A stretch of DNA of 64,000 nt, from contig JARKPK010000083.1 in NCBI GenBank assembly GCA_029975295.1, positions 62,001 through 126,000 on the forward strand. Reading direction: 5' to 3'. This DNA comes from Thermoguttaceae bacterium (GTDB lineage: Bacteria; Planctomycetota; Planctomycetia; Pirellulales; Thermoguttaceae). A program made the position numbers and the translations under genes. Each line of letters opens with the position of its first letter. Position 1 is the stretch's first letter. Shown piece after piece: positions 16,306 through 22,738 of the stretch. Below the pieces are notes generated by a model, which ran no database searches, had not been told where the DNA came from, and saw nothing but the letters and a program-made list of their open reading frames with translations.

Positions 16306-17277
16306 ATGACCTCCTCGGTTTCCATCATCATCCCGTGTTATCAACAAGGCCGGTTTCTCGCCGCGGCCGTCGAAAGCGCATTGGGGCAAACACACCCCGC
16401 CGTGGAAACGATCGTCATCAATGACGGCTCCTCGGACGAAACCGACTCGGTCGCGCGGCAGTTCGGCCGCCGCATCACCTATTTGGCCCAGGCCAACGCC
16501 GGCGTGTCGGCGGCGCGTAATGCGGGCATCGCCGCGGCGCAGGGCGATTACCTGCTGTTCCTCGACGCCGACGACGTGTTGCGGCCCGAGTCGGTCGCAC
16601 GGATGGTCGCGGCCGCGGCCGGCCGACCGCATGTGATTGTGCAGGGCTGGCAGCAGTTCTCCGACTGCCCGCAGCGCCCCACCGCCGACGAATTTCGTCC
16701 CGACCTGTCCGCCGGGATGCTCCCGATGCTGCTCTACACGAATCCGATCCAACCGCCGGCCGCCTGCTTGTGTCCGGCCGCGGAGGTGCGCCGCGTGGGC
16801 GGGTTCGCCCGAGAACTGGCCGGCACGGAAGACTGGGACCTTTGGATTCGGCTGGCGATCGACTCCGTGCCGTTCGAAACGATCGACTACCTCGGGGCGC
16901 TCTATCGGCGGCATGCGGCGTCGGCAAGCGCGCACGGCCGCAAGATGATCGAGGGAAAAATCGACGTGCTGCTCCGTGTCGAACAACGGCTCCGCGCCGA
17001 CGCCCCGCAGCAAGCCGCGTTGGGGCCGCATCTGTTTCAAGCCCTCCGCGACGCGCTTCGCAAATCGATCGCCCGAGGCCGAATCTCCCCCCATCGCATT
17101 GCCGCCTTGATCGACGCGATCACTCACTTGCGGGCCCAACGGACGGCCGACTTCGCCACTTGGCACGAACGGTGGTTGCATCGGCTGTTCGGGCTTCGGG
17201 CGGAATGGCTCCGCGTGGCTTTCTGGCGCGTGCTGCGACCGAAAACATTTCATTACATGGCCAACACGCCCGCCTAA
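16306..17277 (+). CDS. GT2-family glycosyltransferase
   Basis: A 323-aa GT-A enzyme: SVSIIIPCYQQGRFLAAAVE, VINDGSSDETDSVAR for nucleotide binding, ARNAGIAAAQGDYLLFLDAD with the DxD metal site (LDADD), and GTEDWDLWIRL, the ED motif holding the catalytic base. It would add one sugar to the surface polysaccharide from an NDP-sugar. It is the last recognisable gene of the polysaccharide cluster; a hairpin with a T-run lies 236 bp downstream. No membrane helix is present, so it is probably peripheral. Confidence 0.9.
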   Translation: MTSSVSIIIPCYQQGRFLAAAVESALGQTHPAVETIVINDGSSDETDSVARQFGRRITYLAQANAGVSAARNAGIAAAQGDYLLFLDADDVLRPESVARMVAAAAGRPHVIVQGWQQFSDCPQRPTADEFRPDLSAGMLPMLLYTNPIQPPAACLCPAAEVRRVGGFARELAGTEDWDLWIRLAIDSVPFETIDYLGALYRRHAASASAHGRKMIEGKIDVLLRVEQRLRADAPQQAALGPHLFQALRDALRKSIARGRISPHRIAALIDAITHLRAQRTADFATWHERWLHRLFGLRAEWLRVAFWRVLRPKTFHYMANTPA

Positions 17278-17480: not shown

Positions 17481-17508
17481 TTGACTCCGCCTTTGAGGGA
17501 GTTAGACT
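17481..17508 (+). promoter_or_regulatory. Promoter of the cimA-valS leader
   Basis: TTGACT (17481-17486) and TAGACT (17503-17508) are 16 bp apart, close to the sigma-70 consensus. Transcription would begin near 17515, giving a leader of roughly 60 nt before the leader-peptide ATG and about 215 nt before the intrinsic terminator. The assignment rests on sequence resemblance and on the ordered elements that follow. Confidence 0.55.
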
Positions 17509-17513
17509 TAAGG

Positions 17514-17537
17514 ACTTGCTGCGGCAAGTTGTTTTTT
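17514..17537 (+). terminator. Hairpin with T-run ending the polysaccharide operon
   Basis: ACTTGC (17514-17519) pairs with GCAAGT (17524-17529) around a TGCG loop and is followed by tgttttttag. It could terminate transcription coming from the glycosyltransferase genes. It also coincides with the expected 5' end of the cimA leader transcript. The stem is only 6 bp, so strength is uncertain. Confidence 0.5.
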
Positions 17538-17574
17538 AGACAAGCAAGATCGCGCACACGTTTTCCGAGCGGAC

Positions 17575-17664
17575 ATGACGCCCTTTTCGGCCTATCGCTG
17601 CGAACACACTGATGCCGCCCCGATCGGCGGCATCGTCGTGATTATTCGCAACGTTCGGCCATAG
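17575..17664 (+). CDS. Leader peptide with Ile-Val-Val-Ile-Ile run (attenuator)
   Basis: A 29-codon open frame from ATG 17575 to TAG 17662-17664. Its sequence is MTPFSAYRCEHTDAAP followed by IGGIVVIIRNVRP. Codons 20-24 are ATC GTC GTG ATT ATT, a run of branched-chain codons with another Val at codon 27. This is the arrangement of classical ilv/leu leader peptides, where a shortage of charged tRNA stalls the ribosome. A purine-rich GAGCGG precedes the ATG. The stop codon lies inside a segment that can pair with the 5' arm of the downstream terminator. The downstream genes are citramalate synthase (isoleucine pathway) and valyl-tRNA synthetase, which match the control codons. Peptides of this kind normally act only by being translated. 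The ORF is too short to prove by itself; the context is the evidence. Confidence 0.65.
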   Translation: MTPFSAYRCEHTDAAPIGGIVVIIRNVRP

Positions 17665-17707
17665 GGGCCGTTCGGAACCATTCCGAACCGATACAAGCCC
17701 TGAGGCC
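17656..17707 (+). promoter_or_regulatory. Candidate antiterminator pairing in the cimA leader
   Basis: GGCC (17657-17660) and AGGG (17663-17666) can pair with GGCC (17704-17707) and CCCT (17698-17701), which form the 5' arm of the terminator. The two structures are mutually exclusive. The upstream segment covers the leader-peptide stop codon, so a ribosome finishing the peptide would mask it and let the terminator form, while one stalled at codons 20-24 would leave it free. A perfect hairpin gttcggaa-cca-ttccgaac (17670-17688) fits in the loop. Paired by eye, not by energy calculation. Confidence 0.45.
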
Positions 17708-17732
17708 GAAGACGGGCCTGAGGGCTTTTTTT
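17695..17732 (+). terminator. Intrinsic terminator in the cimA-valS leader
   Basis: AAGCCCTGAGGCC (17695-17707) pairs with GGCCTGAGGGCTT (17715-17727) with one mismatch and a 7-nt loop, followed directly by a run of seven T (17726-17732). It is a strong rho-independent terminator. It lies 30 nt after the leader-peptide stop and 276 nt before the cimA start, with no upstream gene left to end, so it is best read as the attenuator terminator. Confidence 0.8.
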
Positions 17733-18008
17733 CTTCCGTAACTGATGCAACCGATGATCTCGTTCCGACAAGCGAAGAACCCCGGGGCCGGTGTTGCGGC
17801 CGCTGCGCGAACCCCCGAACGGTTCGGCAACACAGCCGAGAAACGGAAGGCCGAGGTTCGCCGGAAAAGCGCAGGCCGCGCCCAACATTGCCCGTTTTAC
17901 AATCCAGAAACCCATTCCCTGTGAACATTGCGGATTGAGCGCGTTTCCGCCCTGCGAAAAGAGCATGGGCTTTCGCGAAAGAACGCGCGGTTTCAAGTGA
18001 GCAAGCGT

Positions 18009-19604
18009 ATGATGCGACGCATCGAACTGTACGACACGACCTTGCGCGACGGCTCGCAAGCCGAAGGGCTGAGCTTTTCGCTGAGCGACAAACTCCAGTT
18101 GACCGCCCGACTCGATGAATTGGGCTTCGATTTCGTCGAGGGCGGCTATCCGGCCTCGAACGAGAAAGACGCGCAGTTCTTCACTCGGGCCGCCGAGTTG
18201 CCGCTGAGCGTGGTGCGCGTTGCGGCGTTCGGAATGACCCGGCGGAAGAACACCCGGCCGGCCGACGATTCGGGCCTGGCCGCGATGCTGGCCGCTCCGA
18301 CCCGTTGGGCCACGATCGTCGGCAAGGCGTCGGCATTCCAGGCCACGGAAGTGCTTCGCACATCGCGCGAAGAGAACTTGGCGATGATCCGCGATACGAT
18401 CGCCTACCTTAGAGCGGCCGGGCGCGAGGTGATCTTCGACGCCGAGCACTTCTTCGACGGTTGCAAGTTCGACCGCGACTACGCCCTGGCGTGCCTCCGC
18501 GCGGCGGCCGAGGCCGGCGCGGCGAAAGTGGTTCTGTGCGACACCAACGGCGGCTCGATGCCCGAGGAAGTGGCGGCCTTCACCCGCGCCGCGGTCGAAG
18601 CCCTGCCCGTGCCCGTGGGAATCCATTGCCACAACGATTGCGAACTGGCGGTGGCCAATTCGCTGGCGGCGGTCGATGCCGGCGCTTCGCAGGTGCAGGG
18701 CACGATCAACGGGTTCGGCGAGCGGTGCGGCAACGCCGATTTGATCTCGGTGGCCGCCAATTTGGCGTTGAAGAAGGGCTATTCCGTCCTCCAGCCCGAG
18801 AGCGTTCGCCGGCTCACCGAGCTTTCGCGGTACGTTTATGAAATGGTGAACATGAACTTCCGCCCGCATCAGCCGTTCGTGGGCAAAAGCGCGTTTGCCC
18901 ACAAGGGCGGCATGCACGTCAGCGGGGTGGCGCGCACTTCGCAAAGCTACGAGCATATCGATCCGGCCCTGGTGGGAAATGAACGCCGCGTGCTGGTGAG
19001 CGAGCTTTCGGGCCGCTCGAACATCGCCGCTTTGGCCCAACGGCACGGCATCGCACTGGATCCGAAGCTGATGGACGGCATTTTGGCCCGCGTGGTTTCG
19101 ATGGAGAACGCCGGCTACCAGTTCGAGGCGGCCGACGGCTCGTTCCATTTGCTCGTGCAACGTTCGATGAACACCTTCCGCCCGCACTTCGAGCGGATTT
19201 CGTATCGGGTCAACGTGGAAACGGAGCGCGACGGGACAACCGTGACCGAGGCGACGGTCAAGCTTCGCGTGGGCGACGAGATTCGCCACGAAGTGGCCGA
19301 GGGCGACGGCCCGGTCAACGCGCTGGACGCCGCCATGCGAAAGGCGCTGAACGGCTCGTTCCCGAATCTGGCCAAGATGCGGCTGGTCGATTATAAAGTC
19401 CGCGTGATCAACTCGGAGGCGGCCACCGCCGCCGGCGTCCGCGTCATCATCGAAAGCCAAGACGAAGACGACGTCTGGGGCACGGTCGGGGTGAGCGAGA
19501 ACATCATCGAGGCCAGTTGGATCGCCCTGGTCGACGCCATCGAGTACAAACTGAGCAAAGACGAACAACGGTGCGGCCGAACCGCCGCGGATGCAACGTC
19601 ATGA
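18009..19604 (+). CDS. cimA: (R)-citramalate synthase
   Basis: A 531-aa protein of the HMGL-like/LeuA family. It starts MMRRIELYDTTLRDGSQAEG and has FVEGGYPASNEKDAQFF; metal ligands are in GIHCHNDCELAVANS near residue 204, followed by GTINGFGERCGNADL. The C-terminal part (from about residue 400) is the LeuA-type allosteric domain. The length and the DGSQAEG/EGGYPASN motifs match the citramalate synthase subgroup rather than 2-isopropylmalate synthase. The enzyme condenses acetyl-CoA with pyruvate, the first step of threonine-independent isoleucine synthesis. The start at 18009 is set by family alignment; tandem ATGs make 18012 equivalent. The stop overlaps the valS start by 4 bp. An attenuator-like leader lies upstream. 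Confidence 0.9.
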   Translation: MMRRIELYDTTLRDGSQAEGLSFSLSDKLQLTARLDELGFDFVEGGYPASNEKDAQFFTRAAELPLSVVRVAAFGMTRRKNTRPADDSGLAAMLAAPTRWATIVGKASAFQATEVLRTSREENLAMIRDTIAYLRAAGREVIFDAEHFFDGCKFDRDYALACLRAAAEAGAAKVVLCDTNGGSMPEEVAAFTRAAVEALPVPVGIHCHNDCELAVANSLAAVDAGASQVQGTINGFGERCGNADLISVAANLALKKGYSVLQPESVRRLTELSRYVYEMVNMNFRPHQPFVGKSAFAHKGGMHVSGVARTSQSYEHIDPALVGNERRVLVSELSGRSNIAALAQRHGIALDPKLMDGILARVVSMENAGYQFEAADGSFHLLVQRSMNTFRPHFERISYRVNVETERDGTTVTEATVKLRVGDEIRHEVAEGDGPVNALDAAMRKALNGSFPNLAKMRLVDYKVRVINSEAATAAGVRVIIESQDEDDVWGTVGVSENIIEASWIALVDAIEYKLSKDEQRCGRTAADATS

Positions 19605-22600
19605 GCACTTCCCCGAACGAGAATCGTTCCGAACTCCCCAAACAGTACGACCACCTGGCCGCGCAGCGCCGCTGGTACCAATTTTGGGAGCAGCGGGGCT
19701 GCTTTTCCAGCGACCCCAACCCGGCCAAGCGGCCCTACACGATTGCCATTCCGCCGCCCAACGTTACCGGGGCCCTGCACTTGGGCCACGCCCTGAACAA
19801 CACCCTGCAAGACATCTGCATTCGCCGCAAACGGATGCAGGGTTTCGAGGCCCTCTGGATCCCCGGCACCGACCATGCCGGCATCGCCACGCAGGCGGTG
19901 GTCGAACGCCGGTTGCTGCAAGAGGAAGGGCTTTCGCGGCACCAGTTGGGCCGCCAAGGGCTGGTCGATCGCATCTGGCAATGGAAGAACGAATATGAGG
20001 CGCGGATTCTCGGCCAACTGAAGCAGATGGGCTGCAGCTGCGATTGGCGCCGCACTCGGTTCACGCTCGATCCGATTTGCGCCCGGGCCGTCCGCCACAC
20101 CTTCTTCAGCCTGTTCAAAGAGCGGCTGATCTACCGCGGCAAACGGCTGGTCAACTGGGACACGATGCTGCAAACGGCCGTCAGCGACGACGAAGTGTTC
20201 CACGAAACCGTCGACGGCCATTTCTGGTACATCAACTATCCGCTGATCGATCCGCGCCCGGGCGAGCCGGCGCACGTCACCGTGGCCACCACGCGGCCCG
20301 AAACGATGCTCGGCGACACGGCCGTGGCCGTGCATCCCGATCCGGCCGGGGCCTTGGAGCGGGCCGAACGCGACTTGCGGGCCAAGATCGACGACGCGCC
20401 GGCCAAAGAACGCCCGGAGTTGGAAGACCTGCTCGAACAGCTCCGCCGACGACGCGACGAGATGCTGCCCCTGCTGGTCAAGCTGCGCGACATGGCCCGC
20501 CGCGGCGCGATGGCTTTGCTGCCGTTGCAGAATCGGCCCATCCCGTTGATCGAGGACATTTGGGCCAAACCCGAATTGGGGACCGGCTGCGTGAAGATCA
20601 CGCCGGCCCACGATCCGAACGACTACGAGGTGGGCAAACGCCACGGGCTTCCGATGCCCAGCATTCTCAACCCCGACGGCACGCTGAGGGACGAAGCCGG
20701 CCCGTACCGCGGCAAGACGATCGCCGAGGCCCGCGCTCAAGTGGTCGCCGACCTCGAAGCCCTCGGGCTGCTGGCCAAGGTGGAAGACCGCAAGATCGAG
20801 CTGGCCCACAGCGATCGCTCGAAAACGCCGATCGAGCCGCTGCTGACCGATCAATGGTTCGTCAAGATGGACCATCTGGCCCAAACGGCCATCGACGCCG
20901 TGGTTGACGGCCGCGTGAAAATCATTCCCTCTCGCTACGCCAAGGGCTACCTCGATTGGCTCGGCGAGAAGCGCGATTGGCCCATCAGCCGCCAGTTGTG
21001 GTGGGGCCACCAAATCCCCGTTTGGAGCGCGGCCGCAGCCGACCGCAACGCCCTAAGCGACGCCCTGGCCCTGCTGGCCGAGCTGGACCGGCGTTTCCCC
21101 CGATTGATGAAACACCAAGTGGAGGAACCGGAGCGGACCGGCGAAGGCGCCGCGCCTGGCGGGGCGGTTGTGCACGCCTGCTTGCTGGAGGATCAACCGG
21201 AATTGATCGCCGCCCTGGAATCGGCCGGCTTCGTCCGCTCGCCCGACGTGCTCGACACCTGGTTCAGCTCGGCCTTGTGGCCTCATTCCACGCTCGGTTG
21301 GCCCGAACAAACGCCCGAGTTGCGCTACTACTATCCCACCAGCGCGCTGGTGACCAGCCGCGACATCATCACCCTATGGGTGGCGCGGATGGTGCTGGCC
21401 GGGCTGCACAACGTGGGCGAAGTGCCCTTTGCCGAAGTCTATATCCACCCGAAAATCCTCGACGCCTACGGCGAGGGGATGTCGAAGAGCAAAGGCAACG
21501 GCGTCGATCCGATCGATGTGATCGAGAAGTTCGGCGCCGACGCGCTGCGGTTCGGCCTGGCCTATCTCACCACCGAAACGCAAGACATCCGCATGCCCGT
21601 TGAGTTCGAGTGCCCGCACTGCGAAAAGCTCGTCGAGCAAACGCGCGAAAACCGCATTCTGCCGCGGATCAAGTGCCCGCACTGCGGAAAGGCCTTTTCG
21701 ACCCAATGGGCGAAGAAGCCCGCCGACGTGGCCCTGCCGCGCGGGGCGGTGGTCAGCGAGCGATTCGAGCTTGCCCGCAACTTCTGCAACAAGCTGTGGA
21801 ACGCCTCGCGGTTCGTGATGATGAACTTGGAGGATTATCGGCCCGCGGCAATGTCTTCCGAAGAACTCCGCGTGGAAGACCGTTGGGTGCTCAGCCGGCT
21901 GTTCACGGTGACGGAAGTGGTTTCGTCGGCTTTCGACGAATATCGTTTCGCCGATGCGGCTCGCGCCCTCTACGACTTCGCTTGGGACGAGTTTTGCAGC
22001 TTCTACGTGGAGATGGTGAAAACGCGACTTCAGAACGAAGCCGAGCGGCCCGTTGCCCAGCGCGTACTGACCCACGCGCTGGACGTGTTGCTGCGCCTGC
22101 TGCATCCCGTCGCGCCGTTCGTCACCGAAGAGGTGTGGCAACGGCTGGCGGCGATTGCGCCGGTCCGCGGGCTCGACGATCCGCGTCCCGCGGCCGAGTC
22201 GATCATGATCGCCCCTTGGCCCGTCGCCCGAAAGGAAGATCGCGACGCGCAGATCGAGGCCCTCTTCGCTCGATTTCAGGAAGTGCTCCGCGGCGTGCGC
22301 GACATTCGCGCGCGGCAAAACGTGCCGCCCCGAACCACAGTGCGGTTTTCGATCCGCACCGACGCCGAATTGGCCGAAGCCCTGCGGCCCATGGCGCCCT
22401 ATTTCGTCTCGATGGCCGGCGCCGAACTGACCGAGATCGGCCCGCAAACAACCGCGCCGCCGTTGTGCGCGGGCATCGCGCTTCCGGCGATGGAAGTGTT
22501 CGTCAATTTGGCCGGCGTGATCGACGTGGAAGCCGAATGCGCCCGAAAACGCAAGGAACTGGCCGACCTGGAGAAGTTCATCGCGGCCAAGCGGAACAAA

Positions 22601-22738
22601 CTGCAAAACCAGTCGTTCATCGAGCGTGCGCCGGCCGAGGTCGTGCAAAAGGAACGCGATTCACTCAACGAATTGGCGGCCGCGCGCGACGCCGCCGTCC
22701 GCGCCCTCGAACAACTGATCGCGGCCGCGAAAACCTAG
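19601..22738 (+). CDS. valS: Valyl-tRNA synthetase
   Basis: A 1045-aa class Ia synthetase that charges tRNA-Val. The HIGH motif is in PPPNVTGALHLGHALNN (about residue 60), and KMSKS is in YGEGMSKSKGNGVDP (about 626). The editing domain includes TVATTRPETMLGDTAVAVHP and carries a helical insertion rich in Glu and Arg (about residues 255-305). Right after the KMSKS region FECPHCEKLVEQTRENR and RIKCPHCGKAF form a four-Cys zinc-ribbon-like insertion. The C-terminus has the usual coiled coil (about residues 970-1045). It starts as ATGA within the cimA stop, so it is translationally coupled and should share the cimA attenuator. The protein is longer than typical bacterial ValRS (about 880-950). Confidence 0.95.
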   Translation: MSTSPNENRSELPKQYDHLAAQRRWYQFWEQRGCFSSDPNPAKRPYTIAIPPPNVTGALHLGHALNNTLQDICIRRKRMQGFEALWIPGTDHAGIATQAVVERRLLQEEGLSRHQLGRQGLVDRIWQWKNEYEARILGQLKQMGCSCDWRRTRFTLDPICARAVRHTFFSLFKERLIYRGKRLVNWDTMLQTAVSDDEVFHETVDGHFWYINYPLIDPRPGEPAHVTVATTRPETMLGDTAVAVHPDPAGALERAERDLRAKIDDAPAKERPELEDLLEQLRRRRDEMLPLLVKLRDMARRGAMALLPLQNRPIPLIEDIWAKPELGTGCVKITPAHDPNDYEVGKRHGLPMPSILNPDGTLRDEAGPYRGKTIAEARAQVVADLEALGLLAKVEDRKIELAHSDRSKTPIEPLLTDQWFVKMDHLAQTAIDAVVDGRVKIIPSRYAKGYLDWLGEKRDWPISRQLWWGHQIPVWSAAAADRNALSDALALLAELDRRFPRLMKHQVEEPERTGEGAAPGGAVVHACLLEDQPELIAALESAGFVRSPDVLDTWFSSALWPHSTLGWPEQTPELRYYYPTSALVTSRDIITLWVARMVLAGLHNVGEVPFAEVYIHPKILDAYGEGMSKSKGNGVDPIDVIEKFGADALRFGLAYLTTETQDIRMPVEFECPHCEKLVEQTRENRILPRIKCPHCGKAFSTQWAKKPADVALPRGAVVSERFELARNFCNKLWNASRFVMMNLEDYRPAAMSSEELRVEDRWVLSRLFTVTEVVSSAFDEYRFADAARALYDFAWDEFCSFYVEMVKTRLQNEAERPVAQRVLTHALDVLLRLLHPVAPFVTEEVWQRLAAIAPVRGLDDPRPAAESIMIAPWPVARKEDRDAQIEALFARFQEVLRGVRDIRARQNVPPRTTVRFSIRTDAELAEALRPMAPYFVSMAGAELTEIGPQTTAPPLCAGIALPAMEVFVNLAGVIDVEAECARKRKELADLEKFIAAKRNKLQNQSFIERAPAEVVQKERDSLNELAAARDAAVRALEQLIAAAKT

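Follow-up and report, generated by a model that had tools for sequence, protein, structure and literature searches.

Organization of the cimA-valS locus

The window, the whole 64,000-nucleotide stretch of DNA that was analysed from a Thermoguttaceae bacterium, encodes a citramalate synthase (CimA) and a valyl-tRNA synthetase (ValS), preceded by a leader with a short open reading frame (ORF) and a terminator hairpin. All features lie on the forward strand:

17481-17508, forward strand: predicted sigma-70-like promoter-like pair, TTGACT (17481-17486) and TAGACT (17503-17508) separated by 16 nt
17575-17664, forward strand: predicted leader peptide ORF of 29 codons, MTPFSAYRCEHTDAAPIGGIVVIIRNVRP followed by the stop codon, with an Ile/Val cluster kept in related leaders
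17632-17646, forward strand: candidate regulatory codons ATC GTC GTG ATT ATT (Ile Val Val Ile Ile)
17633-17734, forward strand: match of 77.5 bits to R1, a covariance model for cimA leaders that was built from 21 sequences, the window among them
17657-17668, forward strand: putative antiterminator 5' strand GGCCATAGGGGC, spanning the leader stop codon TAG (17662-17664)
17669-17690, forward strand: hairpin GTTCGGAA/TTCCGAAC within the antiterminator loop, predicted by folding and compatible with both alternative states
17695-17707, forward strand: terminator 5' arm AAGCCCTGAGGCC, which would also be the antiterminator 3' strand
17714-17732, forward strand: terminator 3' arm GGGCCTGAGGGCTT with seven T (hairpin 17695-17727, T-run 17726-17732)
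18009-19604, forward strand: cimA, citramalate synthase, the proposed first controlled gene
19601-22738, forward strand: valS, valyl-tRNA synthetase

CimA matches TIGR00977 (5e-199; 662 bits against a cut-off of 450) in addition to the Pfam domains HMGL-like and LeuA_dimer, and ValS was identified by profile match, which confirmed the two genes named in the original prediction; the valS start overlaps the cimA stop codon (ATGA). The valS-model match of ValS is split into three stretches, and its translation shows a CPHC...CPHC zinc-ribbon-like stretch. In the order, valS lies 3' of cimA in 31 of the 42 loci for which some 220 nt or more of downstream sequence was available, which points to a common cimA-valS operon; a codon signal of both Ile and Val therefore suits both genes. 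The bacterium's own genome has no threonine deaminase match above the cut-off of TIGR01127, the sole ilvA model applied, as would be expected if Ile is made via citramalate.

Architecture of the leader

The promoter-like pair, the 29-codon ORF, the Ile/Val codons and the terminator with seven T, all of them described in the original prediction, are present as listed above. The promoter-like pair is the sole such match in 2.1 kb scanned on both strands, against 0.1 expected. The 3' end of the ORF reads ATC GTC GTG ATT ATT CGC AAC GTT CGG CCA TAG, and its last Ile/Val codon starts 13 nt 5' of the antiterminator strand, a distance close to what a ribosome covers downstream of its A site. The terminator hairpin has the form AAGCCCTGAGGCC-GAAGAC-GGGCCTGAGGGCTT, with GAAGAC as the loop, and the exact pattern of its core is unique in the 5.0-Mb genome. 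As had been claimed, the strand over the leader stop codon is able to pair with the terminator 5' arm (17697-17707). Moreover, folding of the leader RNA, suggested earlier as a check, gave a structure better than those of 200/200 dinucleotide shuffles (z -5.85).

Terminator-like matches in the 2.1-kb stretch are near chance frequency (3 vs 2.6 expected), and the antiterminator duplex of the window alone is not significant against shuffles (p 0.080). The case for an attenuator is carried by conservation, rather than by the window alone. A further terminator-like hairpin with a T-run is located at 17513-17536, right at the predicted transcript start. The terminator start and cimA are 314 nt apart, so there may be a second promoter between terminator and gene.

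Conservation of the Ile/Val leader upstream of cimA

A search of 60 related genomes yielded 51 cimA matches with 60% identity or more, 50 of which were used, including the window's own but excluding a fragment (G009); one of the 50 (L017) has just 194 nt upstream. The detector recognises a short ORF that has at least 4 Ile/Val in 8 codons and ends shortly before a hairpin with a T-run, and its expectation was calculated by shuffling the upstream sequence with the terminators kept. An Ile/Val leader followed by a terminator was detected at 29 of the 50 orthologs of the order, against 0.3 expected, so that the conservation of Ile/Val codons in relatives, which the original prediction had proposed to check, was borne out. 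The Leu version of the detector fired at none of these 50 orthologs. The leader peptides of related cimA loci end, for example, with GAIVVIIIQEVRP, GRVVIIIRNTGP or VVGVIIIGKVRP directly before the stop codon. In the other 21 of the 50 orthologs, 13 of which have no terminator, the Ile/Val leader and terminator were undetected, and the element is thus absent or unrecognised in many genomes of the order. One locus (L039) matched a loose leader pattern by chance and was excluded from the alignment A1 (35 rows). At L017, a 74-bp unit is repeated in tandem about 2.3 times in positions 1-173, directly 5' of cimA and at a contig edge; the unit includes the terminator 3' arm and T-run.

Leader codons follow the downstream gene

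Of 296 genomes of the order, 127 contain matches (E<=0.1) to R1, the covariance model derived from 21 cimA leaders. Among the best 110 matches listed, 83 precede cimA, 23 precede leuA and 4 precede neither within the DNA examined; 95 of them were examined by sequence (73 cimA, 18 leuA on the same strand, 4 neither) and 15 by position (10 cimA, 5 leuA). Two of the four unassigned matches (L068, L071) stop at a contig edge, and the other two (L078, L212) lead into a gene for a membrane TPR-like protein, as read from the translations. As a TPR-like reading frame ends just before cimA at L031, which is in the same genome as L078 (G053), the membrane TPR-like protein gene has likely been inserted between the attenuator and cimA in L078/L031 and in L212.

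Upstream of leuA, 17 of 20 loci show the same layout with Leu codons, against 0.6 expected, and 1 of 20 shows it with Ile/Val codons. Nine of these 20 loci had been chosen through R1 matches (8/9 positive), and the remaining 11 gave 9/11. The window's own genome carries both leaders: its LeuA was confirmed by TIGR00973 (732 bits, cut-off 599), and the leuA leader peptide, which ends with SLLLLGLGQARA before the stop codon, scores 27 bits with the cimA model R1. This codon swap is the sharpest control, in that the leader codons follow the downstream gene.

The codon at position -6 from the stop is Ile in 35 and Val in 5 of the 55 cimA leaders (Ile/Val in 40/55), and Leu in 12 of the 16 leuA leaders; such counts are partly selected, since Ile/Val/Leu content guided the choice of reading frame and the codon columns are part of R1, and the shuffled-detector test is cleaner. 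With the same partial selection, ATT encodes 72% of Ile in cimA leaders vs 19% in genes, and CTA/TTA encode 39% of Leu in leuA leaders vs 4% in genes. In addition, 57 of the 68 leaders used (out of 71) have a promoter-like pair scoring 9 or more of 12, against 2.75 expected. Apart from the Ile/Val run and a final Arg-Pro, which is encoded by the antiterminator strand, the leader peptides of the order look unrelated to each other.

The alternative stems

Stem tests were performed on 71 of the 95 leaders (55 cimA, 16 leuA). The 24 others were left out because of no cimA or leuA (4), a stop codon outside the 24-34 nt window (15) or no automatic terminator/GGG anchor (5). The stop-codon strand pairs with the terminator arm of its own leader at a mean of -20.8 kcal/mol, compared to -18.8 with arms permuted among the 71 leaders, a value of the own pairs that 0/5000 permutations reach, with relatedness not removed. 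For the same 71 leaders, arms permuted within each gene kind gave a mean of -19.2 kcal/mol, also with 0/5000, and shuffled strands gave -11.2. In fixed columns, the paired fraction of the 71 leaders is 0.769 for own arms vs 0.739 for permuted ones (z 4.6 overall, 3.7 within gene kind), a modest difference from which relatedness is not removed; the duplex-energy test is clearer than this count. Scanned leader by leader, 24 of 37 cimA and 4 of 18 leuA leaders reach p<=0.05, the own leuA leader having p 0.194.

The pairing extends to other orders and classes: in 17 of 31 leaders detected there, the sequence surrounding the stop codon forms a better duplex with the terminator arm of its locus than its own shuffles do (p<=0.05). 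There the pairing logic is kept with other sequences, such as ACTTCGGGGTC:ACCCCGAAGC and TCCTGAGGA:CCTCAGG, and in a Phycisphaerales record GGCCTTAGGGCG pairs with GCCCTGGGGC. The terminator arm and the stop-codon strand thus appear to keep their complementarity through sequence change, whereas column-wise covariation in the 21 best-aligned leaders is not above shuffles; the alternative stems, which were to be compared across relatives, are therefore supported by the former line and not by the latter.

A conserved 1:2 pause/protector hairpin was rejected as part of the element, as it was found in only 5 of 71 leaders at p<=0.05 (3/55 cimA, 2/16 leuA). The window leader itself can form such a hairpin.

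Distribution beyond the order and at other amino-acid genes

In a family of another order of the same class (f21), the Ile/Val leader was detected at 7 of 7 cimA loci, against 0.6 expected, and at 1 of 2 further loci; the Leu detector also fired in 2 of the 7. A Gemmataceae-like family (f74), for which the closest named record is Gemmataceae in 15 of 16, has it at 13 of 16 cimA loci, again against 0.6 expected, and a further family (f77) at 1 of 3. By comparison, it was found at none of the 19 cimA loci of a family that is closest to Singulisphaera in 16 of 19 (f73). Outside the class, 4 of 32 cimA orthologs in the phylum have an Ile/Val leader, against 0.3 expected, and in 28 of 32 it was undetected.

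Among 80 distant named cimA loci, a terminator preceded by an ORF in which 8 codons include 5 or more Ile/Val/Leu is present at seven, a count made with no shuffle control. Planctomycetes supply the named records nearest to the window in this comparison, from which close records may be missing. Six of them are planctomycete records (L102, L103, L104, L106, L109, L164), of which L104 fails the stricter Ile/Val test, and one is deltaproteobacterial (L123). In the latter, the Deltaproteobacteria MAG B46_G9, an ORF with NIIVIISATGILLPLLLLVVV and then a strong terminator are located about 275-125 nt upstream of cimA, which may together form an Ile/Val/Leu attenuator of cimA in a non-planctomycete.

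Several cimA leaders of f74 and f77 (L104, L394, L411, and in part L395-L407) hold within the leader ORF a hairpin, GCGCAGGGAGTGCGC, that encodes AQGVR and has the loop GGGAG, which is reminiscent of a CsrA site. The hairpin shows almost no synonymous change, and in L395 a paired change gives the arms GCGCG/CGCGC. Its exact 15-mer occurs once per genome, at the cimA leader, in 8 of the 14 genomes searched.

The other amino-acid genes examined seldom have such a leader signal in front of them. An Ile/Val leader with a terminator was found at 0 of 29 ilvB loci (one of 30, L198 with 97 nt, being left out), and a His-codon leader at 0 of 27 hisG loci of the order, where one Ile/Val row (L373) was seen. 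A Trp-codon leader was found at 2 of 30 trpE loci of the order, namely L339 (FWWWRS) and L340 (WRFW), in which short Trp-codon ORFs, some 450 and 240 nt 5' of the trpE match, are followed by terminator-like hairpins; these two are possible Trp attenuators. One locus with 76 nt (L312) was left out of the codon-cluster detector counts.

A model for attenuation of cimA-valS

From the parts present, their conservation, their codon specificity and their complementarity, we infer the transcript start, the translation of the ORF, the ribosome positions and the amino-acid response in the following model. RNA polymerase would start near 17515, with a ribosome translating the leader ORF behind it. When charged Ile- or Val-tRNA is scarce, the ribosome would stall on ATC GTC GTG ATT ATT with its leading edge at about 17657, leaving GGCCATAGGGGC free to pair with the terminator 5' arm once this is made; no terminator would then form, and cimA-valS would be transcribed. 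When both Ile and Val are plentiful, the ribosome would reach the stop codon inside the antiterminator strand and cover this strand, allowing the terminator (17695-17732) to form.

Folding of the window leader gave the antiterminator before the terminator 3' arm is made (-29.1), and the terminator alone when all RNA as far as a ribosome sitting on the stop codon is taken away (-24.6). For the full leader from which the part under the stalled ribosome is removed, the minimum-energy fold is the terminator state (-41.5). Since formation of the antiterminator is restricted to the time before synthesis of the 3' arm, the decision must be kinetic.

Could the hairpin, preceded by a chance ORF, instead simply terminate transcription of the glycosyltransferase gene that lies upstream? 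The near-chance frequency of terminator-like matches in the 2.1-kb stretch and an ORF of only 29 codons would agree with this. However, the glycosyltransferase gene ends at 17277, more than 400 nt away, and the promoter-like pair in between recurs in relatives. Codon clusters that follow the downstream gene, Ile/Val at cimA and Leu at leuA, contradict the idea, as does the complementarity of the terminator arm and the stop-codon strand across differing sequences, and we regard it as barely conceivable. It is also very improbable that a metabolite riboswitch, a T-box or an RNA-binding protein site chooses between the two hairpins, with the ORF being incidental. The antiterminator/terminator pair would appear identical under such control, and some leaders have extra hairpins, including an invariant one in one family; yet the codon run tracks the gene product, which a metabolite sensor has no need of, and neither the window nor 15 related loci gave an Rfam match at gathering score to a T-box, a riboswitch or a known leader RNA. 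An Rfam search of the leader up to E 5 returned TarB alone, whose 23.9 bits are below its gathering score (80).

The conserved leader ORF might also act mainly via translation, by coupling, as an upstream ORF (uORF) or through an arrest peptide, instead of via transcription termination. Control of ilvB of the uORF type is known in Corynebacterium (PMC11109978). Against this, the peptides of the order share little beyond the Ile/Val run and Arg-Pro, terminators are present in 37 of 50 cimA regions vs 2 of 29 ilvB regions, and the distance from the leader stop to cimA, 72 to 601 nt across the leaders of the order, is ill suited to translational coupling, which makes a mainly translational role highly unlikely. 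Altogether, ribosome-mediated transcription attenuation of cimA-valS is the reading that we favor, with a probability of about 0.92 as judged from the sequences compared here.

Comparison with known attenuators and implications

The enterobacterial ilv, leu and trp leader-peptide attenuators are textbook systems. Similar to them, the planctomycete element has a leader ORF with codons for the pathway amino acid, an intrinsic terminator and, in silico, an antiterminator strand that is masked by a ribosome at the stop codon; rarer codons are favoured in the planctomycete leaders. It differs from them in the phylum, in the genes (cimA-valS), in the lack of a conserved 1:2 hairpin and in the lack of an Rfam match. 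The leader ORF, the codons, the antiterminator and the terminator, whose order the original prediction had likened to ilv/leu/trp attenuators, are conserved; the 1:2 pause/protector hairpin of the enterobacterial model is not. As this protector hairpin is not conserved, the planctomycete element is most likely simpler than the enterobacterial type and outside the three-hairpin subtype (trp/his/leu/ilv).

In actinobacteria, leader peptides or attenuators of trp, ilvB and leuS and the LEU element of leuA have been described (PMC1262725), in addition to a Corynebacterium ilvB-II uORF with two stems (PMC11109978). The actinobacterial systems likewise have antiterminator and terminator stems together with a uORF in which Ile, Leu and Val codons abound, but they control ilvB or leuS, compared to cimA in planctomycetes (PMC1262725, PMC11109978). 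The actinobacterial LEU element is described there as a pseudoknot with the leuA Shine-Dalgarno box and no terminator, whereas the planctomycete leuA leader has a terminator (PMC1262725). The histidine leader peptides of hisS/hisZ in Firmicutes, as presented in a 2010 paper, are a similar case of leader-peptide attenuation outside Proteobacteria and at an aminoacyl-tRNA-synthetase-related gene, but concern histidine and Firmicutes (PMC2965389). The same paper states that such systems were known only from Proteobacteria and Actinobacteria before this Firmicute addition (PMC2965389). The term "planctomycet" is absent from the main text of PMC2965389, PMC1262725 and PMC11109978. The open-access literature searched, with subscription papers outside its scope, apparently holds no paper that describes leader-peptide attenuation in planctomycetes, which agrees with the earlier statement that no amino-acid attenuator of this type was known to have been described in this group.

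We consider it likely that a family of attenuators over several planctomycete orders controls two entry steps, cimA (Ile, with valS) and leuA (Leu), by a common design with the stop codon in or beside the antiterminator strand, and that its conservation is genetic evidence for transcription-translation coupling. Planctomycete cells were once proposed to separate transcription and translation, and coupling was disputed in the phylum; one paper on these cells reportedly favours a Gram-negative cell plan. An attenuator of this kind works only with a ribosome close behind RNA polymerase, and its conservation, including that in the Gemmataceae-like family, would thus be such evidence. The gene-matched pair, Ile/Val at cimA-valS and Leu at leuA, would widen the known range of leader-peptide attenuation and offer a regulatory readout. 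If true, the finding would imply transcription-translation coupling in a phylum where it was disputed, and this could be tested by a reporter.
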